Positions 9,001-40,321 of a stretch of 64,000 bases of DNA are shown piece after piece. The notes beneath the pieces were generated by a model that did no database searches, was not told where the DNA came from, and saw only the letters and a list, made by a program, of their open reading frames with translations. How positions within the stretch are numbered: the stretch's first letter is position 1; every line of letters begins with the position of its first letter. The translations under genes and the position numbers were made by a program. The stretch lies in assembly GCA_020248985.1 (NCBI GenBank), contig JADCGL010000020.1, positions 196,227-260,226 on the forward strand. The letters are read 5' to 3'. Origin of the DNA: Telmatospirillum sp. (GTDB taxonomy: Bacteria; Pseudomonadota; Alphaproteobacteria; CACIAM-22H2).

Positions 9001-9551
9001 AGCTTCAGTTCGGCCTCGTGGCGGCGCGAATGCAGGCCCGTAATACCGGCCGCTTCTTCGAGGATCTGGCGCCGTTCGGTGGGCTTGGCCTGGATGATCG
9101 CACCGATGCGCCCTTGGCTCACCAGCGACGGCGAATGGGCGCCCGAGCCCACATCCTGGAAGAAAAGCTGCACGTCGCGCGCGCGCACTTCGCGCCCGCC
9201 GATGCGGTAGGCCGAGCCCTTTTCGCGTTCGATGCGGCGCACGATGTCGAAATCGGCCATGTCGTTGTAGGCGGCCGGCGCCTTGTGAAGCGGATTTTCG
9301 ACGAGCAGCGACACTTCGGCGACGTTGCGCGCGGGCCGGCTCGACGTGCCCGCGAAGATCACGTCGTCCATTTCGCCGCCGCGCAGCGCCTTGACGCGGT
9401 TTTCGCCCATCACCCAGCGCAGCGCTTCGACGAGGTTCGACTTGCCGCAGCCATTGGGGCCGACAATGCCGGTCAGCCCCGGTTCGATCGCGAACTCCGT
9501 CGGTTCGACGAACGATTTGAAGCCGGACAGGCGAAGCTTGACGAACTGCAT
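6057..9551 (-). CDS. smc: Chromosome segregation protein SMC
   Basis: A 1,164-residue condensin subunit, full length for the family. The N-terminal ATPase half has Walker A G-P-N-G-C-G-K-S at 31-38. A long coiled coil is interrupted near residues 510-640 by the glycine-containing hinge. The C-terminal half has the ABC signature L-S-G-G-E-Q followed by Walker B (I-C-V-M-D-E-V-D-A-P-L-D). The protein dimerises at the hinge and compacts origin-proximal DNA with ScpA and ScpB. The start ATG lies 24 bp after the dsbA-like gene, so the two are probably co-transcribed. Confidence 0.97.
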   Translation of the reverse strand: MQFVKLRLSGFKSFVEPTEFAIEPGLTGIVGPNGCGKSNLVEALRWVMGENRVKALRGGEMDDVIFAGTSSRPARNVAEVSLLVENPLHKAPAAYNDMADFDIVRRIEREKGSAYRIGGREVRARDVQLFFQDVGSGAHSPSLVSQGRIGAIIQAKPTERRQILEEAAGITGLHSRRHEAELKLKAAEQNLARLDDVLTTLGVQLEGLKKQARQAARYRNMSDLVRRAEAILFHLRWQQQIADSQAAAEKLAAAEALVIDITTRAAAASTVLAEAQATLPDLRQHEQEAAAALTRLEVAGEQLADEERRTLAQIAQLDVLLEQLARDKQREENLLADTQNARTRLESELGELAEADTRADGEAAALGDEIASQRDTVETRDAALARATEAVAKAESERAALQREIGDAQSRLARLAERLAAQEADKAKLEAQLAGSDEKRSAFDARLAEAEAHLAAAMSAAEDAEGARRAAQEEEFAAREALRDADQTFSKLDGERQGISRAVGAITKNAGPFAPVMDALKVAPGFETALGTGLGDDLSAGLDAAAPRQWRVLDIASNPPPLPVGAVALASYVEAPAALARRLSQIGVVANEAEGAALAAQLAQGQRLVTKEGALWRWDGFVQAAGAPSQAAELLTMRNRLAVLEDECARAREISTGARTRYAAAQAATKTAEAADQQARQQTRVAGNAIEAARGDIARLTRETEAESTKLGLLGAEIARILADRQELDARRSNAQERFDAIPDPAQARAQLAEDRQALSQARQLLAEREAASQRLARERENRARRRLSIGNEQQAWESRADSAQRQIATLVERHELAESERLDLAERPAKIAADRASLADKTQEMAQLRRNAADQLAAAETAVRDAERALKAVEAALVEAREDRVRGQAHSEQQAQAQEQLALTIRERLDCAPEETLAAGMVEADEDLPAIADIERRLDRLVKERDNMGPVNLRAEQEAEEVEAQIAGMTNEKDDLVQAIGKLRQGIGSLNKEARERLREAFTKVDGHFQDLFQRLFGGGRAHLTLSPVMGADGQVNDDPLEAGLDVMASPPGKKLQSLTLLSGGEQAMTALALLFAVFLTNPAPICVMDEVDAPLDDANVDRFCKLLDEIGRSSGVRFIVVTHHRLTMSKMDRLFGVTMAERGISTLVSVDLRSAERLRATA

Positions 9552-9575
9552 CGACGATACTCCTTGCGGGTAGGC

Positions 9576-10193
9576 TTACTTGACGAGCGGTGCGAGAATT
9601 CGCTCGAGCTCTTCGAAAGTGGGGGCGCCGCGCTGGACCTGGCCGTTCACGACCAGGGTCGGCGTGGCTTGCACGCGATGCTCGCGCTCGCCGGTCATGG
9701 CTTGCGTCAGCACGGCGTTCTGGATCTCGACATTGGCAAGGCACGCGTCGATGGCGGGCTCGCTCATGCCGCCGGTGCGCGCGAGGCGCCGCAAAGCGGT
9801 CATGGCCTGCTCGGCCGAGCCGCGCGTCCAATTCGCCTGCTCGGCGAAGAACACGTCGAGATAGGTGAAATACCGCTCCGGGCCGCTGCAGCGCGCGATC
9901 ATCGCGGCATTGAGGGCGAGCCGGTCGAGCGGGAAATCGCGGAACACGAAGCGGACCTTGCCGGTCTCGACGTATTTTTCCTTGAGGCGCGGCAGCACGT
10001 CGGCATGGAAGCGCGCGCAATGGGGGCACGTGATCGAGGCGTATTCGATGATCGTGACCGGCGCGTTGGCCGCCCCCACGACAAAATCGAGCCCCTCGGC
10101 GCGCGGGCTCTGCTGGGCCTGGGCGGGCGCCGAAACGAAAGCCGCAAAAGCGGCGAAAAAGGCGAAGATTGTCGAGATATGCTGGTTTTTCAC
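9576..10193 (-). CDS. DsbA-family thiol:disulfide oxidoreductase (secreted)
   Basis: A periplasmic thioredoxin-fold protein of about 205 residues. The redox motif is C-P-H-C in S-I-T-C-P-H-C-A-R-F; the cis-proline loop is V-Q-A-T-P-T-L-V-V-N. A signal peptide (K-N-Q-H start, hydrophobic F-A-F-F-A-A-F-A-A-F core, A-Q-A cleavage site) begins at a GTG at 10193 preceded by GGTGGA, so I prefer that start. An in-frame ATG nine codons upstream (10220) is the alternative. The family resembles BdbD/DsbA-like oxidases that form disulfides in exported proteins. It sits between DciA and smc, a conserved alphaproteobacterial order. Confidence 0.88.
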   Translation of the reverse strand: MKNQHISTIFAFFAAFAAFVSAPAQAQQSPRAEGLDFVVGAANAPVTIIEYASITCPHCARFHADVLPRLKEKYVETGKVRFVFRDFPLDRLALNAAMIARCSGPERYFTYLDVFFAEQANWTRGSAEQAMTALRRLARTGGMSEPAIDACLANVEIQNAVLTQAMTGEREHRVQATPTLVVNGQVQRGAPTFEELERILAPLVK

Positions 10194-27502: not shown

Positions 27503-28141
27503 CTATTGGCTGACCCACAGAATGCGGTGGCAGAACACGACTTCGGTCACGTCGAGCACGCGTTCGCCATGCGCCGCGTTGAGCGAGGTTAGCTCGAGCT
27601 TGCGTTGGCCTTTGCGAATCAGCTGCTTGGCCATAACTTCGCCGGCCGTTGTCTTGACCACTACGCGGTCGCCGCGGCGCAGCGAGGCCTGCGGCGAAAC
27701 AACGATCGTGTCGCCGTCGCGATAGACGGGTTCCATGCTGTCGCCTGCCACCATCAACGCATAGGCATGCGTGTCGGCAAGTTCGGGGAACAGCAATTCG
27801 TCCCAGCCCGAACCTGTCGGGAATCCGGCATCGTCGAAAAAGCCTTTTTCACCTGCTTGCGCATAGCCAATTACCGGCACGCGGCGCATTGCACCCGCGA
27901 CGCTCGGTACCGTGCCGATATAGGCGACGAACTCCGACATCGTGGCGCCTGTCGCCTCTAGAATCTTGGCGATGCTCTCAGTCGAGGGCCAGCGCGGACG
28001 GCCGTCGCGCGAAATGCGCTTCGACTTATTGAATGTTGTGGGATCGAGCCCAGCGCGGCGCGCGAGACCCGAGGGGGAGAAGCCGTGATCGCTCGCAAGC
28101 TGATCGATGGCCTGCCAAACATCTGCATGTCGGAGAATCAT
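27503..28141 (-). CDS. S24/LexA-like self-cleaving transcriptional repressor
   Basis: A protein of about 212 residues. The N-terminal helix-turn-helix at about 8-60 contains S-P-S-G-L-A-R-R-A-G-L-D-P-T-T-F-N-K-S-K-R. The C-terminal S24 peptidase domain has the A-G cleavage site in Y-A-Q-A-G-E-K-G, the catalytic Ser in V-A-G-D-S-M-E-P-V, and the catalytic Lys in V-V-V-K-T-T. I start at 28141: a perfect TATAAT lies about 70 bases upstream, and the 50-codon in-frame extension to 28291 is AT-rich and would cover that promoter. It may be a conserved host regulator or the repressor of the adjacent phage cassette, since it is divergent from it; it has host-like GC. Confidence 0.85.
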   Translation of the reverse strand: MILRHADVWQAIDQLASDHGFSPSGLARRAGLDPTTFNKSKRISRDGRPRWPSTESIAKILEATGATMSEFVAYIGTVPSVAGAMRRVPVIGYAQAGEKGFFDDAGFPTGSGWDELLFPELADTHAYALMVAGDSMEPVYRDGDTIVVSPQASLRRGDRVVVKTTAGEVMAKQLIRKGQRKLELTSLNAAHGERVLDVTEVVFCHRILWVSQ

Positions 28142-28210
28142 GTGAGAATTTTTGCTCAAAACGCCACGATTTGCATTAGGTACCTTTTCAAAAAATTTTG
28201 CGGTGAGGTA

Positions 28211-28216
28211 ATTATA
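28211..28216 (-). promoter_or_regulatory. Putative -10 box of the S24 repressor promoter
   Basis: A perfect TATAAT on the minus strand (28216-28211) in an AT-rich gap. No good -35 is found at 17 bases, but the box would give a leader of about 60 bases before the ATG at 28141, which supports that start. Confidence 0.45.
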
Positions 28217-28231
28217 CAGTTTTTCTGCATC

Positions 28232-28260
28232 TTGAATGCTTAAAAAAAGAAGTTTATTGT
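28232..28260 (+). promoter_or_regulatory. Putative promoter of the papain-like phage gene
   Basis: TTGAAT (28232-28237) and TATTGT (28255-28260) are separated by 17 bases, ending 29 bases before the ATG at 28290. Each box is four of six to consensus. It lies back to back with the S24 repressor promoter, which would suit a divergent regulatory switch. Confidence 0.4.
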
Positions 28261-28289
28261 TTGTTCCTATTTTTTGGATTGCTCGAGAC

Positions 28290-28730
28290 ATGCGTGTTGA
28301 TCACCGAGCTTTGAACGGCTTTTGTACCGGTCCTCGGCTGGGATCCGGCGGCGGCCGAGCGATCGTGGTTTTTCGCGATGCGACCGAGATTCGTTGGTTG
28401 CGCTTTTTGAAGCGTGGATTTCGCCATTGCGCCGTCTTGGTCGAAGTCGAGTGCGGTTGGATTTTGTGTGATGCTTTGTCTCATAGAACCCTTTTAAAAT
28501 GTATATTTGATGCGAGTTCACGGGAGATCGTGGAGCGCCTTGGCGCGGCCGGGCTACATGCCATCGAGGTTCGGGTGCAAATGCCGCGAGCGCGGATAGC
28601 GCCGATCCTGCCGTTCACTTGCGTTGAAGTGGTCAAGCGGGTTTTGGGGATTCACGCATGGGGTATCTTCACGCCGTGGCAGCTTTACCGGCATTTGATT
28701 CGAGATCAAAAGTTTATAATTGACAATTAG
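28290..28730 (+). CDS. Phage-associated papain-like (permuted NlpC/P60-type) protein, putative
   Basis: A 146-residue protein. I see R-G-F-R-H-C-A-V-L-V at 42-51, W57 and D61 in W-I-L-C-D-A-L-S-H-R-T, and F-T-C-V-E-V-V-K-R-V-L-G-I at 109-121. A conserved-looking His (46) first and Cys (111) later, the Cys at the start of a helix, is the order of circularly permuted NlpC/P60 (YiiX/LRAT-like) hydrolases. This is inference from motif order. The C-terminal T-P-W-Q-L-Y-R-H-L also looks functional. An upstream ATG (28236) would add a basic-hydrophobic N-terminus. It could be the lysis peptidase of the cassette, or a morphogenesis protein. The stop codon lies inside the late promoter. Confidence 0.6.
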   Translation: MRVDHRALNGFCTGPRLGSGGGRAIVVFRDATEIRWLRFLKRGFRHCAVLVEVECGWILCDALSHRTLLKCIFDASSREIVERLGAAGLHAIEVRVQMPRARIAPILPFTCVEVVKRVLGIHAWGIFTPWQLYRHLIRDQKFIIDN

Positions 28731-28748
28731 CCTATATCAGAATATTAA
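28720..28748 (+). promoter_or_regulatory. Strong promoter of the phage structural operon
   Basis: TTGACA (28720-28725, perfect -35), 17 bases, TATTAA (28743-28748). The predicted start is about 28755. It precedes the small gene and portal by about 100 bp and is the best sigma-70-type promoter in the cassette, so the host RNA polymerase can transcribe it without a phage polymerase. Confidence 0.7.
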
Positions 28749-28755
28749 CTCTATA

Positions 28756-28789
28756 CCGCTCCTGTGAGCGGTCGCTTCGGGCGCGAAGC
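28756..28789 (+). promoter_or_regulatory. Two tandem perfect hairpins at the 5' end of the late transcript
   Basis: CCGCTC-N4-GAGCGG (28756-28771) and GCTTCG-N4-CGAAGC (28774-28789) are two 6-bp inverted repeats only 2 bases apart, immediately after the predicted transcription start. They could act as a 5' mRNA stabiliser or, as DNA palindromes, as repressor operators. Confidence 0.55.
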
Positions 28790-28855
28790 TTGCCGAAATG
28801 GCGGGTACAGGCGTTGCGGAGACTGAATTCTGAGACCGTGAAAGGAGGACGTTCG

Positions 28856-29071
28856 ATGGGTGGTTTTTTCTCGGCGCCGTCGCCGCCGCCGCTGCCGTCG
28901 CAACCGCCGTTGCCGGAGCCGGTTGATACCGAAAAGGAGGCGCGCGAGGCGCGCATTAAGGCATTGATTCGCCGCCGCCGCGGTCGGGCGGGGCTCACGG
29001 TTGCCGGCGCCCCTGGCGTTTTGACCGCTGCCGCCAATCCCGGCAGCCTCGGCACGAAGTTGGGGGAATGA
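28856..29071 (+). CDS. Small proline-rich phage protein upstream of portal
   Basis: A 71-residue protein: M-G-G-F-F-S-A-P followed by a proline tract (P-S-P-P-P-L-P-S-Q-P-P-L-P), then an acidic/basic helix with R-R-R-R-G-R-A-G and a glycine-rich tail. Preceded by a strong AAAGGAGG at about 8 bases. Small genes of this look precede the portal in several T7-like prophages of alphaproteobacteria; function unknown. The stop is 3 bp before the portal ATG. It could bind DNA through its arginine cluster, but that is a guess. Confidence 0.7.
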   Translation: MGGFFSAPSPPPLPSQPPLPEPVDTEKEAREARIKALIRRRRGRAGLTVAGAPGVLTAAANPGSLGTKLGE

Positions 29072-29074
29072 GAC

Positions 29075-30655
29075 ATGGCCCCCGAAATCCCGATGGCGAT
29101 TGCGCTGCCGAATCCGATTCCGGCTGCGACGCTCGATGCAAGCGATCTGATCGCGCGCTATCGACGGGCCAAGCAGCAGCGCGGCGCGTGGGATGCGACG
29201 TGGCAGGACTGCTACGATTTCGCACTTCCGCAGCGCACGCCGTTTTCGGCTGGTGATCGACGCGGCGAACGGCTGTTTGACGGCACGGCCGCCGATGCTG
29301 CCGAGCAACTCGCGGCATCTCTGATGTCGCAGCTCGTCCCGCCTTGGTCGCGATGGTTCGGTCTGCAGCCGGGTACGCAGGTGCCGGAGATGCAGCGCGC
29401 GGACGTAGGTGACGTTCTCGAGAATGCAGCCGCCGTGCTGCAAGGCCATTTCGACCGCTCGAACTTCGCCATGGAAATCCACCAATGCTTTCTCGATCTC
29501 GTCGTGGCGGGTACGGCCGTGCTGCAGTTCGAAGAAGCGCCGGTAGGATCCGATGCGGCCTTCCGCTTCATGGCCGTGCCTATCGCGCAAATCGCGCTAG
29601 ACGAAACCGCCGACGGCGCGTTCGACATCGTGTTCCGCGCAAGCGAAATGCGTTTCGACCGACTGCGCGCGCGATATCCCAAGGCGCAGTTGCCCGACGG
29701 CCTCGCCGCCGGCGGCAAAGAGATGGCCGAAAGGCGCCACAGCGTGATCGAGGCGACGATCCAGGAAGCCGCGGGGTCTCGCTACATCGCTATGCTCGAA
29801 GCGTCCCCCGACGCTGCGGCTCCCGTCGTGCTCGCCGAGGGGCGCTTTGCGCAGTCGCCGTTCCTGTGCTTCCGCTGGCTCAAAGCGCCGGGCGAAGTCT
29901 ACGGGCGTTCGCCGATCATGAAGGCGCTGCCCGACATCAAAACGGCGAACAAAGTGGTCGAGCTCGTGCTCAAAAACGCATCGATTGCGGTTACGGGCAT
30001 CTGGCAGGCCGACGACGACGGCGTGCTCAATCCCGCAAACGTCAAACTCACGCCCGGCACAATCATTCCCAAAGCCGTCGGCTCGGCCGGTTTGACACCG
30101 CTCGAAGCGCCCGGCCGATTCGACGTGTCGAATCTCGTGCTCGAAGATCTGCGCAGCCGCATCAGACATGCGCTGCTCGCCGACCGACTCGGGCAGGTCG
30201 ATGCGCCGAAAATGACGGCCACCGAAGTGATGGAACGGGCGGCCGAAATGTCGCGTGTGCTGGGGGCGACCTACGGGCGTCTGCAGACCGAACTGCTCAC
30301 GCCGCTTGTGGCGCGCGCGTTGGCGATCCTGCGGCGGCGCGGCGAAATTCCGCCGGCCCTCGTCGACGGCAAGCTCGTCGAGCTCCAATACAAGTCTCCG
30401 CTCGCTCGCGTCCAAGCGCAGGACGACGTGCGCAACGCGATGCTGTGGGTGCAACAGGCGGCGGCCTTGGGGCCCGAAGGCCAAGCGGTGATCGACGGTG
30501 CCGCCGCCGCACGTTGGATGGCGCGCGCACTTTCCGTCCCCGCCGACCTCGTGCGCCCGCCGCAGCCTGAACCGGCGCCGACGCAGAACGCGCAAGACTT
30601 GCTGCTCCAGGCGCTGGGCCAACCGACTTCCGCGCAATTGACCCCGAACCAATAG
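29075..30655 (+). CDS. Phage portal (T7-like head-tail connector) protein
   Basis: A 526-residue portal of the T7 gp8 type. It has the N-terminal W-Q-D-C-Y-D-F-A-L-P region and L-F-D-G-T-A-A-D-A-A-E-Q-L-A-A-S-L-M-S-Q-L-V-P-P-W-S-R-W-F, which is characteristic of podoviral connectors. A central wing and stem region follows, with a V-Y-G-R-S-P-I-M-K-A-L-P-D-I-K-T-A-N segment and a helical C-terminal part (M-T-A-T-E-V-M-E-R-A-A-E). Twelve copies would form the DNA entry ring. Intact and of expected length. Confidence 0.92.
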   Translation: MAPEIPMAIALPNPIPAATLDASDLIARYRRAKQQRGAWDATWQDCYDFALPQRTPFSAGDRRGERLFDGTAADAAEQLAASLMSQLVPPWSRWFGLQPGTQVPEMQRADVGDVLENAAAVLQGHFDRSNFAMEIHQCFLDLVVAGTAVLQFEEAPVGSDAAFRFMAVPIAQIALDETADGAFDIVFRASEMRFDRLRARYPKAQLPDGLAAGGKEMAERRHSVIEATIQEAAGSRYIAMLEASPDAAAPVVLAEGRFAQSPFLCFRWLKAPGEVYGRSPIMKALPDIKTANKVVELVLKNASIAVTGIWQADDDGVLNPANVKLTPGTIIPKAVGSAGLTPLEAPGRFDVSNLVLEDLRSRIRHALLADRLGQVDAPKMTATEVMERAAEMSRVLGATYGRLQTELLTPLVARALAILRRRGEIPPALVDGKLVELQYKSPLARVQAQDDVRNAMLWVQQAAALGPEGQAVIDGAAAARWMARALSVPADLVRPPQPEPAPTQNAQDLLLQALGQPTSAQLTPNQ

Positions 30656-30668
30656 AAAGGAACGAACG

Positions 30669-31457
30669 ATGAGTGCGAATCTTCTGACGCTCGAAAGCGC
30701 TGGGGCAGCGTCGGCTCTCCCCACAGCTGCGCAAGCTGGCACGCAAGCCGCCCCTGTTGCCGCAGCAGCGGACAGCGAGCGTCCGGGCTATCTGCCCGAA
30801 AAGTTCTGGGATCCCGAAGGCAAAAAAGTGCGCCTTGACGTGATGTCGAAATCCTACGGCGAACTCGAGCGCAAGCTTTCGAGCATGATGCCGGGGCCGC
30901 AAGCGCCGGATTTCGACAAGGCCTTGCGCAAAGCGCTCGGCGTGCCCGAAGCGCCGGACGCCTACCGTATCGAACTCAAGGACGATCTCTTGCAAGTCGA
31001 CCCTGAGGTCAACAAGCGCCTGCATGCGGCCGGATTCTCGCCGGCCCAGGCCCAGCTCGTCTACGATCTGGCGATCGAGCGCATGGTGCCGCTCGTGCGC
31101 GAATACGCCGAGGTCTACCGCAGCGAAATGACGCAGACCAAGCTCATCGAAGAATTTGGCGGCGACACGGCCTGGTCGACGCTTGCTCCTCAGCTTGCAA
31201 GCTGGGGCCAGGCGAATCTGCCGTCGTCGGTCTATGATGCACTTGCGGCAACGCCCGAGGGCGTACGCGCACTTCACAAACTCATGAACTCGGGCGAGCC
31301 CAATCTGCGCGGGGCGACGGCGGCGGCAAGTGGCCCGGCCGACGAGGCGGAGCTGCGCAAGCTGATGGCCGACAAGCGCTACTGGCGCGATCACGATCCC
31401 GAACTCGTGCGGATCGTCTCGGAGGGCTTCAAGCGCCTTTATCCCGACCGAGACTGA
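30669..31457 (+). CDS. Capsid assembly scaffolding protein (putative)
   Basis: A 262-residue, mostly helical and acidic protein between portal and capsid genes, the position of T7 gp9 scaffold. It has a low-complexity alanine-rich N-terminus (about 1-38), a Y-L-P-E-K-F-W-D-P-E-G-K-K-V motif at about 41-54 (seen in the scaffold-like proteins of other tailed phages), and a helical C-terminal half ending in a basic R-L-Y-P-D-R. RBS AAAGGA. The call depends on position plus the F-W-D-P motif. Confidence 0.75.
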   Translation: MSANLLTLESAGAASALPTAAQAGTQAAPVAAAADSERPGYLPEKFWDPEGKKVRLDVMSKSYGELERKLSSMMPGPQAPDFDKALRKALGVPEAPDAYRIELKDDLLQVDPEVNKRLHAAGFSPAQAQLVYDLAIERMVPLVREYAEVYRSEMTQTKLIEEFGGDTAWSTLAPQLASWGQANLPSSVYDALAATPEGVRALHKLMNSGEPNLRGATAAASGPADEAELRKLMADKRYWRDHDPELVRIVSEGFKRLYPDRD

Positions 31458-31757
31458 AGTCGGTCAAAAGGATCTTGACAAATTCCTTTTAAGGTAGTAT
31501 TTACTTAGATACTTCGCCCGAAGCAGGCTGCCGCATTCGCCACCGCCTTTCCGGATAACGAAGTCTCCCCCTTTCTTCCCGCCGTCGGGACAACCGGCCG
31601 GCCAGGCAAGCCTCTCAAGGCAGCCCGGATCGGCCGGCCCTCCGGCATCCAGCGCCGTCACCGCGATTGCCCGGGTCACAAGTGCCGCCGATCGGCGTGC
31701 AATGCGGCAACCCTCAATTGTTTTTGTTCGAACCCCAAACGCGACAGAGAGGCAACT
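31458..31757 (+). promoter_or_regulatory. 300-bp untranslated region upstream of the capsid gene
   Basis: No plausible gene on either strand. It begins with an AT-rich island holding TTGACA (31475-31480) and possible -10 boxes (TAGTAT at 31495, spacer 14; or TATTTA at 31498, spacer 17). A GC-rich stretch follows with two copies of GGCCGGCC (31596-31603 and 31632-31639) that can pair across 28 bases, then AT-richer DNA before the capsid start. It could give a separate strong capsid transcript with a structured leader. Confidence 0.5.
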
Positions 31758-32570
31758 ATGCCCGACATCGACAAATCCTTCGTCAAACAATACGAGAGCG
31801 AAGTCCATCTCTCGTATCAACGCCTTGGCTCGAAGTTGCGCCCCACGGTCCGCTCGAAGAAGGCGGTCCAGGGTGCGTCCACCGTGTTCCAGAAAATGGG
31901 CCGGGGCGCGGCCTCGACTAAGGCCCGCCATGCGGCGGTGCCGGTGATGAACGTCGAACATTCGACCGTCGAAGTGTTCCTCAAGGACTACTACGCCGGC
32001 GAATGGCTCGACGCGCTTGACGAAATCAAGACGGCCGGCGATGAGCGATCGGCGGTGGTTAACTCGGGCGCCTACGCGCTCGGGCGCAAGACCGACGAAC
32101 TCATCATCGAAGCCCTCAACGGCTCGACGAACCTCGCCGGCCTCAGCACCGATGGCCTGACCAAAGCCAAGATCCTGGCTGCGTTCGAGAAGCTCGGCGG
32201 GCAGGACGTGCCCGACGACGGCGAGCGCTACGCCGTGATCGGCTGGAAGCAGTGGTCGGAACTGCTCGAAATCGACGAGTTCGCGAACGCCGACTATGTC
32301 GGCGACGAGGAACTCCCTTGGCGAGGCACGCAAGCCAAGAAATGGCTCGGCACGTTGTGGATGCCGCATTCGGGACTCACGTCCGTCTCGGGCGTGCGCC
32401 TGTGCCACTGGTACCACAAAACGGCCGTCGGCCACGCCGCCGGTTGCGAGGTCAAAAGCGATCTCACGTGGCACGGCGACCGCGCATCGTACTTCATCAG
32501 CAACATGATGAGCCAGGGGGCCGGCATCATCGATGCCGCCGGCGTTGTGACCCTGCGCTGCAAGGAGTGA
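31758..32570 (+). CDS. Major capsid protein
   Basis: A 270-residue HK97-fold-type major capsid protein. It resembles the Phage_capsid_2 group: N-terminal S-F-V-K-Q-Y-E-S-E-V-H-L-S-Y-Q-R-L-G-S-K-L-R-P, a central Y-A-V-I-G-W-K-Q-W-S-E-L-L segment, and a C-terminal Y-F-I-S-N-M-M-S-Q-G-A-G-I-I-D strand. Start ATG with an AGAGAGGC ribosome binding site. It sits between scaffold and tail genes, as in T7. Intact, with host-like composition. Confidence 0.88.
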   Translation: MPDIDKSFVKQYESEVHLSYQRLGSKLRPTVRSKKAVQGASTVFQKMGRGAASTKARHAAVPVMNVEHSTVEVFLKDYYAGEWLDALDEIKTAGDERSAVVNSGAYALGRKTDELIIEALNGSTNLAGLSTDGLTKAKILAAFEKLGGQDVPDDGERYAVIGWKQWSELLEIDEFANADYVGDEELPWRGTQAKKWLGTLWMPHSGLTSVSGVRLCHWYHKTAVGHAAGCEVKSDLTWHGDRASYFISNMMSQGAGIIDAAGVVTLRCKE

Positions 32571-32580
32571 GGAGCAAGCC

Positions 32581-32850
32581 ATGGCTTTCGAAGTCAAGAA
32601 CCTGTCGGTCCTCGCCTACGCCAACGGCTTTACGCTGTGGCACTACACCACGTCCGATGCGGCGGCGGCAGTCGACAATGTCGGCTACTTCAACGCCGCC
32701 AGCGACATGCTGCATGTCGGCGACATGATGCTGGCCAACGTCGCCACGGCCGGGTCGCCGCAGAACGGCGTCTTTGCCGTTGTATCCGTCGCCAACGGCG
32801 TCGTGGATCTCGCCAACATGACGGTGTTCGACACGTCGAACACCGACTGA
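32581..32850 (+). CDS. Small phage structural protein, possible head decoration
   Basis: An 89-residue protein directly after the capsid gene (10-bp gap). It is hydrophobic/polar beta-type (L-W-H-Y-T-T-S-D-A, M-L-H-V-G-D-M-M-L-A-N-V) with no cysteines. Proteins of this size and position often decorate or stabilise the capsid. I recognise no specific family; function inferred from position. RBS GGAG upstream. Confidence 0.65.
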   Translation: MAFEVKNLSVLAYANGFTLWHYTTSDAAAAVDNVGYFNAASDMLHVGDMMLANVATAGSPQNGVFAVVSVANGVVDLANMTVFDTSNTD

Positions 32851-32921
32851 GCCACTGGGACTGGCGGCGGGCGCCCCTCAGATTCGCCCGTCGCCTCCCT
32901 GTCCTGCATTCGGAGGTAACA

Positions 32922-33491
32922 ATGGCTCTCTCGCAGATTGCTTTGTGCTCGCGTGCGCTCATCAAGCTGGGCGCCCAGCCGATCGCATCGTTCGCCGAAG
33001 GGACGGTCGAATCGCAGGTCGCCGCTGCGCTTTTCCCGTCGGTGCGCGACGGTCTCATCTCGGCCCATCCGTGGAGTTTCGCCAGCGCCCAGACGACGCT
33101 GCCGCGCCTGGCGAGAGATCCCGTCGCCGACCATCGTTTTGCGTACCAGCTACCGCCGGATTTCCTGCGTGCGTTGTCCGTAGGTCAGGGTGCGCGCGGG
33201 CGTGGAACGGCCTATCGAATCGTCGAGTCGGCATTGCACACCGACAGCGATGGCGTGGTGCTGTCCTACATTTTCCGGCCAGACGAGTCCGCCTTTCCGC
33301 CGTTCTTCGACGCAGCCTTGATCGCGGCCCTGGCGGCCGAGTTCTGCCTGCCGGTCACCGAAAGCACGAGCCGGGCCGAACTGCTCTATCGGCTTTCCGA
33401 AAACGAATTCCGCCGCGCGCGCCTGATCGACGCGCAGCAAGAGACGCCGCAGAGCTTGGACGACTTCTCGCTGGTGGAGGTGCGCCGATGA
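32922..33491 (+). CDS. Tail tubular protein A-like (T7 gp11-type)
   Basis: A 189-residue protein with the motif set of podoviral gp11 adaptor proteins: N-terminal C-S-R-A-L-I-K-L-G-A-Q-P-I, V-R-D-G-L-I-S-A-H-P-W-S-F-A (the conserved H-P-W), then Y-Q-L-P-P-D-F-L-R and C-terminal A-A-L-A-A-E-F-C-L. It forms the ring under the portal that opens the tail. Start chosen at 32922, nine bases after GGAGG. Its stop overlaps the next start (ATGA). Confidence 0.88.
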   Translation: MALSQIALCSRALIKLGAQPIASFAEGTVESQVAAALFPSVRDGLISAHPWSFASAQTTLPRLARDPVADHRFAYQLPPDFLRALSVGQGARGRGTAYRIVESALHTDSDGVVLSYIFRPDESAFPPFFDAALIAALAAEFCLPVTESTSRAELLYRLSENEFRRARLIDAQQETPQSLDDFSLVEVRR

Positions 33492-35395
33492 GCGTTGCGC
33501 GCCTCACCAAGACCAGTTTCGCGTCGGGTGAAATCGGCCCGTCGATGCTGGGCCGCATCGATCTGCGCGCCTACGAAAACGGCGCGCGGCGCTTGCGCAA
33601 CGTCGTGGTGCTGCCCTCGGGCGGCATCAAGCGGCGCCCGGGTCTTGCGCGCATCGCGGGCCTGCCGGGGCAAGCGCGCTTGATCGCGTTCGAGTTCAAC
33701 ACCGAGCAGGCCTATCTGCTGGCACTATGCGGCGGCCAGATGCTCGTGTTCCGCGACGGCGTGCAGATCGCGAATTTCGCAACACCCTGGAGTGCCGCAC
33801 AGCTCAAACAAGTCAACTGGACCCAGAGTGCCGATACGCTGCTTGTCGTGCACCCCGACGTGCCGCCGCAGCGCATCACGCGCACGTCGCACACGAGCTG
33901 GACGATCGCGCAATGGACGTTCTTCGAAGAGAAGGGCGTAGTCCAGCAGCCCTACCACAAATTCGCCGCCGACGCGGCGACGCTCACTCCGAGTGCGACG
34001 ACCGGCACCATCACGCTCAGCGCCTCGCTCGACGTGTTCGTGGCCGGCCATGTCGGCCAGCGAATCCGCATCGTCAAGAAGGAAGCGACGATCACGGCGG
34101 TCGCGGGCCCGCGTTCGGCAACCGCGATATTGGCAGCCGGCAACGCGCTGCCCGACACCAACGCCTCAACCGACTGGGAAGAACAAGCGCTCAGCGCCCT
34201 GCGCGGCTGGCCGATCTGCGTGACGTTTCACCAGGATCGTCTGGTGATTGGCGGTTCGCGCGATCTGCCCAACCGGCTGTGGCTGTCGAAATCGGGCGAT
34301 CTGTTCAATTTCGATCTCGGTACTGCGCTCGACGACGAGGCGATCGAGTTCGCGCTGCTGTCCGATCAGGTCAACGCGATTCGCCACGTCTTTTCGGGGC
34401 GCCATCTGCAGGTCTTCACATCGGGAGCCGAATGGATGGTGACGGGCGATCCGCTGACGCCCGAAAACGTTCAGCTCAACCGCCAGACCCGCATCGGCAG
34501 CCCAAGCGACCGCTCGGTGCGGCCGCGCGACGTTGACGGGGCGACGCTGTTCGTGGGCCGGGGTGGGCGCGACCTGCGTGAGTTTCTGTTCGCCGACTCG
34601 GAACAGGCCTACCAGGCGACGGATCTTGCTTTGCTTGCCCAGCATTTGGTGCTCGATCCGGTAGCGCTCGACTACGATCCCGACGACCGGCTTGTCCATG
34701 TGGTCAATGCCGACGGGTCGATGGCGACGGTCACGATCTACCGTGCCGAACAGGTCACGGCTTGGACGCGCCAGACGACGACGGGCGCCTTCCGCAGCCT
34801 CGTGGTCGTCTCGAATGCGACCTATCTTGCGGTCGAACGCGCTGGGCAGTGGTCGATCGAGTGTTTCGATCCGACCTACTCGACCGATGCGGCAGTCAAA
34901 TTGGCACCCGCACCGGCAGCGGCGACTTGGCAAGGGCTCGACCATCTCAACGGCATCGAGGTGCAGATCCTCGCCGACGGCGTGCCGATCGGCATCGCAG
35001 TGCCGTCGGGCGGGCAGATTGCTGCGCGCGGCGGCCGCACAAACGTCGAAATCGGCATCGGCTTTGTCGGCGAGATCGAGCCGCTGCCGCCGGCCTCCCC
35101 CGGCAGCGCCAATATGCCGCGCAGCGTGCGGCTGATCGAGGTGACCTTCAAGCTGCTCGAGACGCGCCAGCTGCGCGTCGATACCGGCAGCGGTTTCATC
35201 GACGTGCCGTTTCGCGGCCTCGGCGATACGTTCGCCCTCGACAAAGCGCCGCCGCCCTTTTCGGGCGACAAGCGGATTCGGGCGCTGGGCTGGAAGCGCG
35301 CCAGCATTGATCCGCTTTGGCGCATTGAACTCCCGGCACCGCTGCCCTTCACCCTGCTTTCCGCAACCCAAGAAATGAAAGTGAACGACCGATGA
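33488..35395 (+). CDS. Tail tubular protein B-like nozzle protein (T7 gp12-type)
   Basis: A 635-residue beta-rich tail protein with family hallmarks: F-A-S-G-E-I-G-P-S-M-L-G-R-I-D-L near the N-terminus, A-R-R-L-R-N-V-V-V-L-P-S-G-G-I-K-R-R-P-G, and a D-L-P-N-R-L-W-L-S-K-S-G-D-L-F-N-F blade segment. It forms the nozzle of a short tail. Begins in an ATGA overlap with the gp11-like gene. Shorter than T7 gp12 but typical of small podoviruses. Confidence 0.87.
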   Translation: MSVARLTKTSFASGEIGPSMLGRIDLRAYENGARRLRNVVVLPSGGIKRRPGLARIAGLPGQARLIAFEFNTEQAYLLALCGGQMLVFRDGVQIANFATPWSAAQLKQVNWTQSADTLLVVHPDVPPQRITRTSHTSWTIAQWTFFEEKGVVQQPYHKFAADAATLTPSATTGTITLSASLDVFVAGHVGQRIRIVKKEATITAVAGPRSATAILAAGNALPDTNASTDWEEQALSALRGWPICVTFHQDRLVIGGSRDLPNRLWLSKSGDLFNFDLGTALDDEAIEFALLSDQVNAIRHVFSGRHLQVFTSGAEWMVTGDPLTPENVQLNRQTRIGSPSDRSVRPRDVDGATLFVGRGGRDLREFLFADSEQAYQATDLALLAQHLVLDPVALDYDPDDRLVHVVNADGSMATVTIYRAEQVTAWTRQTTTGAFRSLVVVSNATYLAVERAGQWSIECFDPTYSTDAAVKLAPAPAAATWQGLDHLNGIEVQILADGVPIGIAVPSGGQIAARGGRTNVEIGIGFVGEIEPLPPASPGSANMPRSVRLIEVTFKLLETRQLRVDTGSGFIDVPFRGLGDTFALDKAPPPFSGDKRIRALGWKRASIDPLWRIELPAPLPFTLLSATQEMKVNDR

Positions 35396-35871
35396 GTGGA
35401 ATCGAACCCCTCACCGCCATTGCGCTCGGCCAAACGGCTTTCGGCGCTCTTCAGGGAATCGGCAGTGCGAGTGCTGCGCGCGCGCAAACGGACGCTCAAG
35501 TCCAGTCCGTGGCGGCCAACGCCGTGCGCCAGCGGCAGATGCTGCAACTGCAGCAGGAGGCCGACACGCGCAAGCGGCGTAATCTCCTCGAGCGCACCGC
35601 CGCGCGCGCGCGTGTGTCTTTCGGCGCCCGCGGCTTGTCGGATGCCGACGGCTCGGCAGGCGCGCTGCTGTCCGGCATCGAAAACGAATTTGAAGTCGAG
35701 CAGGCCGCCCGCGACCGCGTTTATGGACTGCAGATGGCGGGCATCGACCAGGGCATTGCGGACTCGTTGGTGCGCATCGAACACGCGCGCAGCCGCAACC
35801 TCCTCGATCAGCAGAGCGACATCCAGCGTCGCGTGGGCAGCTTGTTGAGATGGGGCCTCAAACCGCGATGA
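35392..35871 (+). CDS. Internal virion protein-like (T7 gp14 position)
   Basis: A 159-residue helical protein. A small hydrophobic N-terminal segment (L-T-A-I-A-L-G-Q-T-A-F-G-A-L-Q-G-I-G) is followed by a charged Gln/Arg/Glu-rich helix, then the glycine-containing G-A-R-G-L-S-D-A-D-G-S-A-G-A. This is the layout of small internal virion proteins that form the outer-membrane pore in T7-like phages. The start overlaps the previous stop (ATGA). No gp15- or gp16-like partner exists. Confidence 0.7.
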   Translation: MSGIEPLTAIALGQTAFGALQGIGSASAARAQTDAQVQSVAANAVRQRQMLQLQQEADTRKRRNLLERTAARARVSFGARGLSDADGSAGALLSGIENEFEVEQAARDRVYGLQMAGIDQGIADSLVRIEHARSRNLLDQQSDIQRRVGSLLRWGLKPR

Positions 35872-35906
35872 CCTTCGCGCCTCTTTTTCCCGAAAAGGAC
35901 AGATCC

Positions 35907-37865
35907 ATGACCGAGCATCTAAAGATCTCTGCCAAGATCCCGCGCAAGCGCTACGTTGCCAACGGCTCACAGACCGTTTTCAGCTTCGACTTCGTGCTGT
36001 TCCAGCCGAGCGAATTGTTGGTAGCCGTCGATGGTGTGTTGATCGCCTCGGGTGTTGCCGTGTCGCTGCTGGCAGACGGTACGGGGACCGCCACCTTCGC
36101 TTTCGCACCGGCGGTCGGTGCTATAGTCGTGCTCCAGCGTCATGTGACGATCAGGCGCGAAACCGACTTCCAGGAAGGTGGCGAGCTGCGCGCCAAAACG
36201 CTCAACGACGAGTTCGACTTCCAGACGGCAGCCCTGCAGCAGGTCGAGGCAGCGGCGGCACGCGCACTGCAGCTGCCCATCGACGATGCCGACAATGCTG
36301 CAACCGTTCTACCGATGGCTGCCGTGCGCGCAACGAAGGTGCTTGCATTCGACGCGAACGGAGACCCGGTTCTGTCGAGCCAAACCTTGGCGCAGATCGA
36401 AGGCGGTGCGACCGCCGCTGCGGAGTTGGCCACCAGCGCCGCATCCAGTGCTACCGCCGCTGCAAGCGCTGCGATTGCCGCGCAGAATTTGGCGACCAAT
36501 GCGGCGAATTCTGCGACGTCGGCAGCAGCGAGTGCCGCTTCTGTTGCCCTGCCGTTGTCGCTCGCCAGTGGCGGCACGGGTGCGACGATGGCTGCGGCTG
36601 CGCGCACGAATCTCGGGCTTGGCAGCGCCGCGACGTTGAACGCGGGCAGTGCCCCAAACCAGTTGCCGCAGCTCGATAGCCTTGGGCGTCTCCCGGCCGT
36701 TGACGGCTCGCTGCTGACGAATATCGCTGGCGCCTCAACACAGGTGACGGCCGGCGAGGTCCTAGCGATACGTGATCTGATCTATCAGGACATATTCAAC
36801 CAGCGCGGCGGCGGCAGCGACCGTTGGTATCGGGTCGATACCGATGCCATTGCCCCCGTCCGCATCAGCCCGCGCATCGGATTCGCCCTCGCAGCGCTCG
36901 CCAACGGCGCTTCTGGAGCCGCTCAAGTGCGGAGCGGACGTGTCGCGGGTTTTTCCGGGCTCGCCGTCGGCCAACCGATTTTTGCAAGTGCCGTAGCGGG
37001 CGCCGTAACCCAAATAGCTCCGATGTTGCCTGCGTCTGGCACTCAGAACGCGACGCGCCTCGTCGGCATTGCCGCAAGTGCCACCGAAATCGATTTTGAT
37101 CCTGACGACGACACAGTATTCGTGGCGCGCAATTCGGAACTAGCCAGTGGGGCGTTTATTTCTGTTCAGCATTGGGTAGATGCCGGTGCTGCTGAGCGAC
37201 TGGCGCTGGCTTATCTCTCTGGCTCCTTAGCTCAGGCCACTGGTACATTTGGCTTGGCTACTGTTTCGAATCGCTCGATAAACGGCGAGCATGGACAGAG
37301 TCTCGGATTTCAATTTAGCGCCACAACAACCGGCTCACTATTAAGCACTAGAATCAGTGTCTTTAGCGTGACGACATCAGGCTCGTGGGAGGCGAGGCTT
37401 TACTCCAATAGCGTGGGGAGACCTGCTACGCAAATAGGCGCATCGAGCGGCGTAGTGTCGATCAATGCTGCTGGTGACGTTACATTTACGTTTGCGATAC
37501 CTCCGTTGATCGTCACGGGTACAGTCTACTGGCTCGTCATTACGCCGATTTCTGGGTCTCCGGATATCGCGTCAGCGACCGTGGCGGATCAAATCGGTTA
37601 CGGTTCGGGCCGCTCAAACGCAATTGTAGCATTAGCCGACAACAGTATCGGCCTTTTGGAAGATTGGAAGATCGAGATTATTCAGATTGGAGGCGCCATT
37701 CGAAATGAACCCGAGCCACTGTTTCCAGAGCTGCGTTTTATGACCGCTACAGACAAAGTGACTTGCCGTTTCGACGACGGCACTACCTCAAGCGCAGATA
37801 CACGAACTACTTTTTTCAACCGTACCAGTATGACACGCGATCTCGTCGTCGAGGTGATCCTGTGA
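35907..37865 (+). CDS. Tail fibre protein
   Basis: A 652-residue fibre. The N-terminal 150 residues have the T7 gp17-like attachment domain (Y-V-A-N-G-S-Q-T-V-F-S-F-D-F, D-G-V-L-I-A-S-G, E-L-R-A-K-T-L-N-D-E-F-D-F-Q-T). An alanine-rich collagen-like or coiled-coil shaft follows (about 160-240), then L-P-L-S-L-A-S-G-G-T-G-A-T (a common tail-fibre hinge), then a beta-rich C-terminal receptor region. Start at 35907 with AAAAGGA; an upstream ATG at 35868 overlapping the previous stop is an alternative. Codon and base composition turn AT-rich from about 37130, suggesting exchange of the tip. Confidence 0.85.
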   Translation: MTEHLKISAKIPRKRYVANGSQTVFSFDFVLFQPSELLVAVDGVLIASGVAVSLLADGTGTATFAFAPAVGAIVVLQRHVTIRRETDFQEGGELRAKTLNDEFDFQTAALQQVEAAAARALQLPIDDADNAATVLPMAAVRATKVLAFDANGDPVLSSQTLAQIEGGATAAAELATSAASSATAAASAAIAAQNLATNAANSATSAAASAASVALPLSLASGGTGATMAAAARTNLGLGSAATLNAGSAPNQLPQLDSLGRLPAVDGSLLTNIAGASTQVTAGEVLAIRDLIYQDIFNQRGGGSDRWYRVDTDAIAPVRISPRIGFALAALANGASGAAQVRSGRVAGFSGLAVGQPIFASAVAGAVTQIAPMLPASGTQNATRLVGIAASATEIDFDPDDDTVFVARNSELASGAFISVQHWVDAGAAERLALAYLSGSLAQATGTFGLATVSNRSINGEHGQSLGFQFSATTTGSLLSTRISVFSVTTSGSWEARLYSNSVGRPATQIGASSGVVSINAAGDVTFTFAIPPLIVTGTVYWLVITPISGSPDIASATVADQIGYGSGRSNAIVALADNSIGLLEDWKIEIIQIGGAIRNEPEPLFPELRFMTATDKVTCRFDDGTTSSADTRTTFFNRTSMTRDLVVEVIL

Positions 37866-39427
37866 AGTTGTCTACTGGAAAAAGAAATGCGGCCAAATGC
37901 TGTACGCATAAAAAGCCGGCAGCGGCCAATCCCCCGCCGGTTGCGAGTTCGATCCCGGATTTCCCGCGTTTCGTAGCAGATTGGAACTCGCTTCAGCGTC
38001 AGAGCACTCCTGCGTTGCATGTGCGCATCGCGATCTGGCTGCAGACCCAGTGTCGGTCCGGCGGGCAGGGTGCGGTGCTGCTCGCGTTCCGCTCGAGCGG
38101 AAAATCGACGTTGATGGGTCTGTTCTGCGCCTGGCTCTTGGCCAAGGACGCCAATCTGCGCGTGCTTGTGCTGGCGGCCGAGCATGCGCTCGCGCGCAAG
38201 ATGGTACGCAACGTAAAGCGCATCATCGAGCGTCATCCGGCGACCGTCGGCCTCAAACCGGTCAAGACCGAGCAATGGGCGTCCGACCAGTTCGTTGTCG
38301 CGCGCACGGCCGAGCTGCGGGATCCATCGATGCTGGCCAAGGGCCTGTCGGGCAACATCACGGGCACGCGCGCCGACGTGGTGATCTGCGACGACGTCGA
38401 AGTGCCCAATACCTGCGACAGCGTCGCCAAGCGCGAGGATTTGCGCGAGCGCCTCGGCGAGCTCGACTACATTCTCGTCCCTGGCGGGCTGCAGCTCTAT
38501 ATCGGAACGCCGCACACCTACTATTCGATCTACGCCGAACAGCTGCGCGAGGAAACTGGCGAGACAGTGCCGTTCCTCGATGGCTTCGCACGCCTCAAAA
38601 TTCCGCTGCTCGACGAAAGCGGTGCAAGCGTGTGGCCCGAGCGCTTCGACGCCGCGCGCATCGAGGCGGTACGCAAGCGAACGGGACCGCGCAAATTCCA
38701 AGCGCAGATGATGCTGGAACCTGTCGCCGAAACCGCTAGCCGCCTCGATCCCGACCGTTTGATCGTCTACGACGAGCCGCTACACTATTCCGAAGGCAAT
38801 AACGCGGCGATCGTGGCGATCGGCGAGCGGCGCATGCTGTCGGCCACGTGCTGGTGGGATCCGGCCTATGGCAGTCCGACCGGCGACAGGTCGGTCGTGG
38901 CCGTCGTTTTCACCGACGCGCAAGGACACTACTGGCTGCACGAAATCCGCTATCTCGAATCGCCGCGCGAAGAGCTGGGGAAGCTTGACGAGGCGAGCCA
39001 TTTTTGCCGCCAAGTTGCGGCATTTGCGGCGCGCAACCGCGTGCCCTTGGTGACGATCGAGCAGAACGGCGTCGGCCATTTTCTGCCCTCGATCCTGCGG
39101 CGCGAACTGGCTGAGGCAGGGCTCGCCTGCGGCGTCCTTGCGGCGGCGTCCACGCGCGTCAAAGTGCTGCGCATTCTCGACGCGTTCGATGCGCGCCTGG
39201 CGGCGGGCGTGCTGCACGCGCATCGCGACGTGTGGAAAACGCCCTTCATCGTCGAAATGCGCGAATGGCGTCCGGTCGGCGGTGCGCGCGACGACGGGCT
39301 CGATGCGGTCGCCGGCTGCCTGCTGGCCGAACCCGTACGCGTCGAGCCCATCGAGCGTCCGACCGCCAAGCGCAGCTGGCGGGCGGGCGGCCAAGCCCAT
39401 CGCGCCAAGACCGACTTCTCCGTTTGA
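37862..39427 (+). CDS. Terminase large subunit (T7 gp19-like)
   Basis: A 521-residue packaging motor. The ATPase half has a deviant Walker A in A-F-R-S-S-G-K-S-T at about 63-71 and Walker B V-V-I-C-D-D-V-E. The nuclease half has the conserved D in W-W-D-P-A-Y-G and later acidic residues. The W-P-E-R-F-D link region and I-E-Q-N-G-V-G-H-F are typical. Start is a GTG sharing GTGA with the tail-fibre stop. A recognisable small terminase is not adjacent. Confidence 0.9.
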   Translation: MKLSTGKRNAAKCCTHKKPAAANPPPVASSIPDFPRFVADWNSLQRQSTPALHVRIAIWLQTQCRSGGQGAVLLAFRSSGKSTLMGLFCAWLLAKDANLRVLVLAAEHALARKMVRNVKRIIERHPATVGLKPVKTEQWASDQFVVARTAELRDPSMLAKGLSGNITGTRADVVICDDVEVPNTCDSVAKREDLRERLGELDYILVPGGLQLYIGTPHTYYSIYAEQLREETGETVPFLDGFARLKIPLLDESGASVWPERFDAARIEAVRKRTGPRKFQAQMMLEPVAETASRLDPDRLIVYDEPLHYSEGNNAAIVAIGERRMLSATCWWDPAYGSPTGDRSVVAVVFTDAQGHYWLHEIRYLESPREELGKLDEASHFCRQVAAFAARNRVPLVTIEQNGVGHFLPSILRRELAEAGLACGVLAAASTRVKVLRILDAFDARLAAGVLHAHRDVWKTPFIVEMREWRPVGGARDDGLDAVAGCLLAEPVRVEPIERPTAKRSWRAGGQAHRAKTDFSV

Positions 39428-39456
39428 CCCCATCCTTTCGCGGGAGACGACTTGCC

Positions 39457-39765
39457 ATGGATCTATCGAATCTCGAACCCGGCCTTGCGCTACTGGCGGC
39501 TTCCGATGCTTCGTCATTCGGCGCCATTGCGTGGCTGTTCTGGAAGCAGCGCGAACAACATGAACGCGCACTTGCCAAGGCGCACGAAATCAATCTGCGC
39601 GAAACGCGCGATCTTGCCGCACGTCTTGCCGACTTCAAGCTCGAGATCGCGCGCAACTACGCGTCCATCGCCTATCTCAAAGACGTCGAAAACCGTTTGA
39701 CTGCACATCTCTTGCGCATCGAAGCCAAGCTCGACGCTAGCCCCATTGCAGATGCAAGGAGCTAG
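39457..39765 (+). CDS. Small phage membrane protein with coiled coil
   Basis: A 102-residue protein with one predicted membrane segment near the N-terminus (L-A-L-L-A-A-S-D-A-S-S-F-G-A-I-A-W-L-F-W) and a long charged helix after it (H-E-R-A-L-A-K...L-R-E-T-R-D-L-A-A-R-L). The shape resembles an i-spanin or holin-accessory protein of a lysis module; no family recognised. RBS GGGAG about 13 bases upstream. It stands between terminase and holin. Confidence 0.6.
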   Translation: MDLSNLEPGLALLAASDASSFGAIAWLFWKQREQHERALAKAHEINLRETRDLAARLADFKLEIARNYASIAYLKDVENRLTAHLLRIEAKLDASPIADARS

Positions 39766-39775
39766 GAGACCGACC

Positions 39776-40321
39776 ATGATTCCAGCCATTCTTGCACAAG
39801 TGGGTTTGCCCGCTCTGATCCGGCTTGTGGGCGGCGCACTTTCGCGTATCGACAATCCTGTCGCCAAAACCGCGTCGGGCGCTTTGTCCGACGTCGTCCA
39901 AGCGATCGACGCGGCCAAACTCGATCCGGCGCAGATCGCCGAGGCCAACCGCCATCTCGAAACATTGGCTAAGCTCGATAGCGATGATTATCGCGAAACG
40001 ATCCGCGAGGTGAACGCGACGATCCGTACTGAGTCGGCGTCCGAAGACCCATATGTGCGCCGCATGCGGCCGACCTTCGGCTATGTGATGGCCGCGACCT
40101 GGGCCGCACAGATGTCGGCGGTCGCTTGGATCGTGGTTGCAGCTCCGCGCGAGGCAGCGCCGGTGATCGAAGCGCTGGGGGCGTTGTCGCTGATGTGGTC
40201 GGTCGGCCTGTCGGTGCTGGGCGTCTATGTCTACAAGCGCTCGGCCGACAAGGCGCTCGGGGCAGGGCATGCGCCCGAAAGCCTGATCGAGAAGCTTCAA
40301 TCCGTCGTCAATCGGCGCTAG
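39776..40321 (+). CDS. Three-helix holin (GTA/phage holin type)
   Basis: A 181-residue protein. An N-terminal hydrophobic helix (about 1-20), a long charged middle region, and two C-terminal membrane helices (about 100-121 and 128-150) are separated by a short loop with P-R-E-A-A-P. The R-R-M-R-P-T-F-G-Y-V-M-A-A-T-W motif before helix 2 resembles the 'holin of 3TMs, for gene-transfer release' family, which includes gene-transfer-agent holins. Start at 39776 after CTAGGAG. Last gene of the cassette; the host DUF952 gene begins 9 bp later. Confidence 0.75.
   Translation: MIPAILAQVGLPALIRLVGGALSRIDNPVAKTASGALSDVVQAIDAAKLDPAQIAEANRHLETLAKLDSDDYRETIREVNATIRTESASEDPYVRRMRPTFGYVMAATWAAQMSAVAWIVVAAPREAAPVIEALGALSLMWSVGLSVLGVYVYKRSADKALGAGHAPESLIEKLQSVVNRR

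Follow-up and report, generated by a model that had tools for sequence, protein, structure and literature searches.

Gene transfer agents (GTAs) are viriforms whose particles carry mostly random host DNA and do not move the whole element to a recipient; few independent captures that gave rise to them have been recognized. In Alphaproteobacteria, the known families are the RcGTA-like and the BaGTA-like agents (PMC9662315). The GTA of Caulobacter is repressed by RogA, an alphaproteobacterial protein of ~213 residues that contains one helix-turn-helix (HTH) and one S24 domain; RogA acts via gafYZ, whose promoter carries GGAA-N4-TTCC repeats, and key self-cleavage residues are lost in the Caulobacter protein (PMC9632790). 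Here we analyzed a 64,000-nucleotide stretch of a Telmatospirillum sp. contig, referred to as the window, which contains one ~12-kb cassette of podoviral genes at positions 28290–40321. The cassette is best explained as a GTA-like element, a reading that we consider probable, and it is most likely of a kind unreported before in Alphaproteobacteria. If true, a podoviral GTA would add one independent origin.

Family and profile matches on the window proteins assigned thirteen genes to the cassette, all on the same strand. As the original prediction stated, the portal, scaffold, capsid, tail proteins, fibre, large terminase and holin are full length and follow a T7-like order, which was confirmed by matches to PF12236, PF05396, PF19821, NF033889 and PF11351. 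The claimed lack of integrase and polymerase genes was also borne out; family and profile searches identified no integrase, replication or polymerase gene in the cassette. No integrase is present on the whole contig, and five are located elsewhere in the genome. The window contains no tRNA, and no att repeats were found, in agreement with the prediction: the longest direct repeat shared by the 2-kb flanks measures 11 bp, which matches the mean obtained with shuffled sequence. The portal family has one copy in the 4.3-Mb genome. The local order is lysK, an HTH-S24 regulator on the opposite strand, the cassette, DUF952 and pyrD; the housekeeping genes on both sides had been described correctly, and the S24 regulator is now added to the description.

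A search of related genomes at the lysK/DUF952-pyrD locus had been set beforehand as a test, and close relatives carry the cassette at the same place. Orthologous portals, with 72–93% identity, are present in eight of the ten other genomes of the genus; the ninth has fragments. The order of lysK, regulator and cassette is identical in all carriers of the genus, followed by DUF952-pyrD where the contig reaches, and the readable cassette genes are full length with intact frames. The ratio of nonsynonymous to synonymous substitution rates (dN/dS) was calculated pairwise by the Nei-Gojobori method between the window and its three nearest relatives. For the core genes it is far below 1: 0.04–0.06 for the capsid, 0.08–0.11 for the portal, 0.06–0.09 for gp11, 0.09–0.15 for gp12, 0.13–0.21 for the terminase and 0.10–0.17 for the holin, with 0.03–0.14 and 0.07–0.15 for the flanking lysK and pyrD genes, respectively. 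The dS of the cassette is similar to that of the flanks (0.52 for the portal and 0.57 for pyrD, window versus L016), as expected from shared vertical descent. The fibre is exceptional (dN/dS ~0.24, dS ~1.4); its tip is fast-evolving and exchanged, which would fit a receptor-binding protein. A complete prophage form elsewhere, named in advance as evidence to the contrary, was not found in the genus; the genomes have single copies, plus unrelated portals at 27–30% identity in two of them. Taken together, the fixed locus, the dN/dS values and the lack of a prophage form support the predicted domesticated particle or GTA over a deletion remnant or a satellite, and a podoviral particle that was domesticated and is maintained by purifying selection is well supported. 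One genome that groups with the window's genus, CAMDLT010000024.1, is labelled Asaia bogorensis; the name looks wrong.

The cassette extends far beyond the genus. A portal-profile scan of named species genomes returned 493 relatives; the best 80 of these are almost all Rhodospirillales-type, mostly with 54–65% identity outside the window's genus, and they include Magnetospirillum, Azospirillum, Skermanella, Telmatospirillum, Terasakiella, Caenispirillum and Rhodovibrio. The regulator, first gene, portal and scaffold occur together in most named relatives, and lysK is located beside the regulator in many named Rhodospirillales. Strong portals are present in ~48 of 385 sampled alphaproteobacterial genomes, mostly in single copy and in many families, and the cassette is kept in some genomes of only 1.1–1.6 Mb. 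Among twenty regions of the wider class that were read for content, most cassettes are complete or run off the end of the stretch. A cassette between the regulator and (DUF952-)pyrD is also found in families f52, f29 and f98, and three loci outside the window's family (L262, L267 and L268) end in pyrD as the window does. The sister genera of the window's family lack the cassette; in one of them (L324), lysK, one open reading frame, the regulator, DUF952 and pyrD form a clean empty site. Since other families hold the cassette at this very site, it is simpler to assume that the sister genera lost it. Portal and rpoB distances of 21 genomes are correlated (Mantel r 0.66, reached by 0 of 999 permutations), and the two trees have 6 of 18 bipartitions in common, two of these joining different families; this supports an inheritance that would be mainly vertical across families.

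Several loci differ in arrangement. Integrases are located within 20 kb of the cassette in two of 20 relatives (G037 and G220); in G037 (contig C9, locus L276), three integrase genes lie within ~10 kb, unlike nearly all other checked genomes. A 0.9-Mb genome (L264) keeps the cassette genes in scrambled order, a 1.6-Mb genome (L258) has them in permuted order, and one Azospirillum cassette (L096) looks truncated. The gap between scaffold and capsid is a recurrent insertion spot in many genera (L029–L108), exceeding 8 kb in some; the inserts are of host type, including MCP-like, ODP-family (beta-lactamase fold), dienelactone hydrolase-like and, by eye, GGDEF-EAL-like genes.

The features of the window are as follows.

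27503–28141, minus strand: HTH + S24 LexA/cI-like regulator, 212 residues (PF00717, E 1e-20)
28142–28289, no strand: divergent promoter region, A+T-rich; TGAGAATTTTTGCTCA at 28143 is conserved in the near clade
28290–28730, plus strand: conserved 146-residue protein, first cassette gene; His46 and Cys111 are invariant in the alignment
28853–29071, plus strand: small conserved protein preceding the portal, 71–72 residues; no family match
29093–30655, plus strand: portal/head-tail connector (PF12236, E 9e-136)
30669–31457, plus strand: scaffold/capsid assembly protein (PF05396, T7 capsid-assembly, E 2e-14)
31458–31757, plus strand: leader before the capsid gene; TTGACA at 31475, -10-like hexamer at N17 spacing, short conserved motifs
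31758–32570, plus strand: major capsid protein, 270 residues (PF19821, E 1e-77)
32581–32850, plus strand: small protein after the capsid, possible decoration protein (phrog_18004, E 5e-17)
32919–33491, plus strand: tail tubular protein A-like, gp11 (phrog_394, E 6e-43)
33494–35395, plus strand: tail tubular protein B-like, gp12 (phrog_376, E 3e-144)
35392–35871, plus strand: internal virion protein-like, gp14 (weak PF24072; position and conservation)
35907–37865, plus strand: tail fibre with T7-type N-terminus (PF03906, E 0.0017; phrog_1640)
37862–39427, plus strand: large terminase, T7 type (NF033889, 414 bits, cut-off 150)
39457–39765, plus strand: small protein between terminase and holin; no family match
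39746–40321, plus strand: holin, GTA_holin_3TM (PF11351, 45.6 bits, cut-off 24.8)

The Walker A/B and nuclease motifs of the large terminase are intact and conserved; DNA packaging is therefore probably a selected function. In the tail fibre, the N-terminus is conserved, and the C-terminal tip is divergent and low in GC, with a third-position GC content (GC3) of 0.58. Within the region upstream of the capsid gene, we observed a leader of ~230 bases with a sigma-70-like promoter; the motifs GGATAACG (31553) and GGGACAACC (31587), also written as GGATAACG plus GGGAYAACC, are kept in the genus, with no clear extension of the leader motif beyond it. Rfam gave sub-threshold matches only, and none for this leader.

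For lysis, the original prediction had listed a holin and no classical endolysin. Both statements hold; the first cassette gene is now added as a candidate non-classical lysin. The structure model of its product has a pLDDT of 86, and the top VIA-align matches are 6v98 (TseH, Z 6.9) and 3kw0 (Z 5.2), both cysteine hydrolases, which we regard as permuted NlpC/P60 enzymes, a type whose papain-like fold has His and Cys in permuted order; Foldseek with the same model identified no match below 0.001. The protein is predicted to be a permuted NlpC/P60-like cysteine hydrolase. The gene is present in 47 of the 48 cassette genomes and in six other genomes. The small protein at 39457–39765 contains, by eye, one hydrophobic N-terminal segment followed by a charged helix; it shares 85–96% identity with its nearest relatives, with dN/dS of 0.04–0.10, and is a possible lysis accessory.

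The regulator adjoins the cassette in nearly all relatives. Like RogA, it is of HTH-S24 architecture and of similar size (212 versus ~213 residues). Different from Caulobacter RogA, it retains the Ala-Gly site and the Ser/Lys dyad, and the catalytic residues are present in 66–68 of 70 homologues. That the window regulator is RogA (CCNA_00080 in Caulobacter) may be taken as a lead, drawn from architecture and size; its sequence had no PDB match at 1e-5. Of the 48 cassette genomes, 44 have a strong RogA-like regulator, as do 20 of 36 genomes with RcGTA and 40 of the 301 that have neither GTA. In 70 of 137 relatives, compared to 17 expected by shuffling, the interval from regulator to cassette contains sites resembling GGAA-N4-TTCC with at most one mismatch, although the loci are not independent; most of these sites lie 13–19 bases upstream of the regulator start. 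One clade of the genus combines a complete (L032) or partial (L033) loss of the self-cleavage residues with a perfect GGAA-N4-TTCC palindrome. The RcGTA genome G210 also encodes a regulator without self-cleavage residues. The S24 gene as a cassette-specific repressor was dropped, as it occurs in cassette-free genomes.

From these genes we infer particle formation, random packaging of host DNA, induction, release and transfer. An ancestor of these Alphaproteobacteria would have captured a podovirus, which would then have lost its integration and replication functions and been retained by the host. In some of the cells, the divergent S24 regulator would be relieved by RecA-stimulated self-cleavage, proposed in view of its intact Ala-Gly, Ser and Lys residues, or by a different signal, and the cassette would then be transcribed. 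Portal, scaffold and capsid would assemble into a prohead, which the T7-type terminase would fill with host DNA; gp11, gp12 and the fibre would form a short tail, and the holin and the candidate cysteine hydrolase would lyse the cell. The particles might attach to kin cells by the fibre and supply them with DNA for recombination or repair. The genome of the window encodes ComEC, as do many non-GTA bacteria.

Some observations weigh against a GTA under such control. No small terminase was recognized in the cassette. The regulator is also kept in sister genera that lack the cassette, so its control of the cassette is putative; these same genera indicate that the cassette is dispensable. No GGAA-N4-TTCC site, with up to one mismatch, is present between regulator and cassette in the window. 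Some horizontal exchange may have occurred, as the deep descent rests on single-gene trees. The RcGTA marker PF13547, a tail TIM-barrel gene, is present in 36 of 385 genomes and absent from the window's genome; it overlaps with the cassette in 0 of 48 cassette genomes, compared to 4.5 expected (p 0.006, uncorrected for phylogeny), and this non-overlap is confounded by phylogeny.

Other explanations were weighed on the same evidence. A decaying, functionless remnant of a defective prophage would account for the absence of integration and replication genes, and such decay does occur: besides the truncated-looking Azospirillum cassette, one genome of the genus (G011, locus L027) has a deletion remnant at 8500–9870, in which the portal start and a capsid piece are joined to the terminase end; besides that end, the regulator, first gene, small protein and holin have survived around the internal deletion. 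However, in nine species of the genus the readable frames are intact and dN/dS lies far below 1, which largely refutes decay, and orthologues persist in single copy in tens of families; we regard a remnant as very improbable. A compact selfish element or satellite of 12–18 kb, spread by host or helper-phage replication in its own capsid and tail, would agree with the many proviral contigs of like kind and size in IMG/VR and with the integrases near two of the cassettes, and the cassette might fit its own capsid. The fixed locus, the lack of integrase, att and replication genes, the dS equal to that of the flanks, the host-congruent tree and the mostly single copy make this explanation quite unlikely.

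A domesticated particle might also serve a role other than DNA transfer, as a PBSX-like killing particle or a phage-interference capsid. The variable fibre tip would suit a killer too, but the terminase catalytic motifs and the portal, which an empty killer would not need, are under purifying selection. This argument is weakened by the fact that PBSX packages DNA (PMC12946183). We consider such a role unlikely and retain the GTA-like element as the best explanation for the cassette.

If this explanation is true, the cassette would help to decide if a single host repressor family takes over captured phages again and again. It is widespread in culturable genera (Azospirillum, Magnetospirillum, Skermanella and Terasakiella), and natural losses and deletion remnants offer ready comparison strains. 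The finding is relevant to gene exchange among nitrogen-fixing and magnetotactic bacteria and to viral databases, in which such loci are currently listed as proviruses. The capsid and tail geometry of a podoviral GTA would be different, and its cargo size would therefore probably differ as well.

HTVC010P-like and other T7-order podophages (EXVC031P, MEP301 and Yersinia YeP5) all have a homologous portal, and in EXVC031P the scaffold, capsid, gp11 and gp12 genes are ordered as in the cassette. These phages, however, have genomes of 33–40 kb and portals at most ~36% identical to that of the cassette; the best isolated match is Pelagibacter phage EXVC031P at 36%. Active T7-like phages and prophages carry polymerase, replication or integration genes of their own, whereas the cassette has none. 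The 80 nearest viral-database contigs carry the same compact gene set and do not exceed 25.4 kb. In the portal tree, 110 cassettes and 81 small proviral contigs fall in one clade without isolated phages (support 0.68, and 0.92 one node inward); with moderate confidence, the cassette lineage appears phylogenetically separate from free viruses. If cellular genomes and IMG/VR are set aside, the nearest portal (55.6%) is on a 5-kb human faecal contig filed as phage (MT838907.1). Phage satellites of the PICI/cfPICI-like type have an integrase, att sites and mobility between loci, none of which applies to the cassette.

Particles of Azospirillum lipoferum reportedly looked siphovirus-like, and we did not adopt them as a product of the cassette. 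As far as cited in PMC3899980, they contain 10 kb of random DNA (Boyer 2008). Searches of the open-access literature returned no podoviral GTA in Rhodospirillales and no report of the cassette as a GTA.

Like the cassette, RcGTA and CcGTA (Rhodogtaviriformidae and relatives) are vertically inherited alphaproteobacterial phage clusters without integrase (PMC9662315, PMC9632790). CcGTA is under a RogA-type HTH-S24 repressor, the cassette adjoins a RogA-like regulator, and its holin matches the Pfam family named for GTA release. However, RcGTA is siphovirus-derived, whereas the portal, capsid and T7-type terminase of the cassette are podoviral. BaGTA of Bartonella (Bartogtaviriformidae) is also a host-co-evolved alphaproteobacterial cluster, ~14 kb in size (PMC9662315, PMC3610622). 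Different from the cassette, it is associated with secretion genes and with an origin of replication derived from a virus; compared by published description, its 1.34-kb terminase gene lies beside a 1.86-kb portal gene in another order.

A parallel in composition is FpGTA of Faecalibacterium, which was proposed in 2026 to be podovirus-like (PMC12946183). It has compact terminase, portal, scaffold, capsid and short-tail genes, as the cassette does, lacks replication genes and is near-ubiquitous in one genus. The original prediction had held that such an element would be a new type; in view of FpGTA this no longer holds for podovirus-like GTAs in general, but it stands for a separate alphaproteobacterial element that is far more widespread than the sequence alone could reveal. 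For FpGTA, particles and ~9 kb of packaged DNA have been demonstrated, whereas those of the cassette are predicted; the two are compared here by gene content and layout. FpGTA belongs to Bacillota and is split into two operons ~125 kb apart; the alphaproteobacterial cassette is a single 12-kb unit that holds tail, fibre, terminase and holin together. Chances are about even that it represents a further, independently domesticated podoviral GTA family, dating back to the split of several Rhodospirillales-type families, which is under a RogA-type host repressor and replaces RcGTA where the latter is absent.

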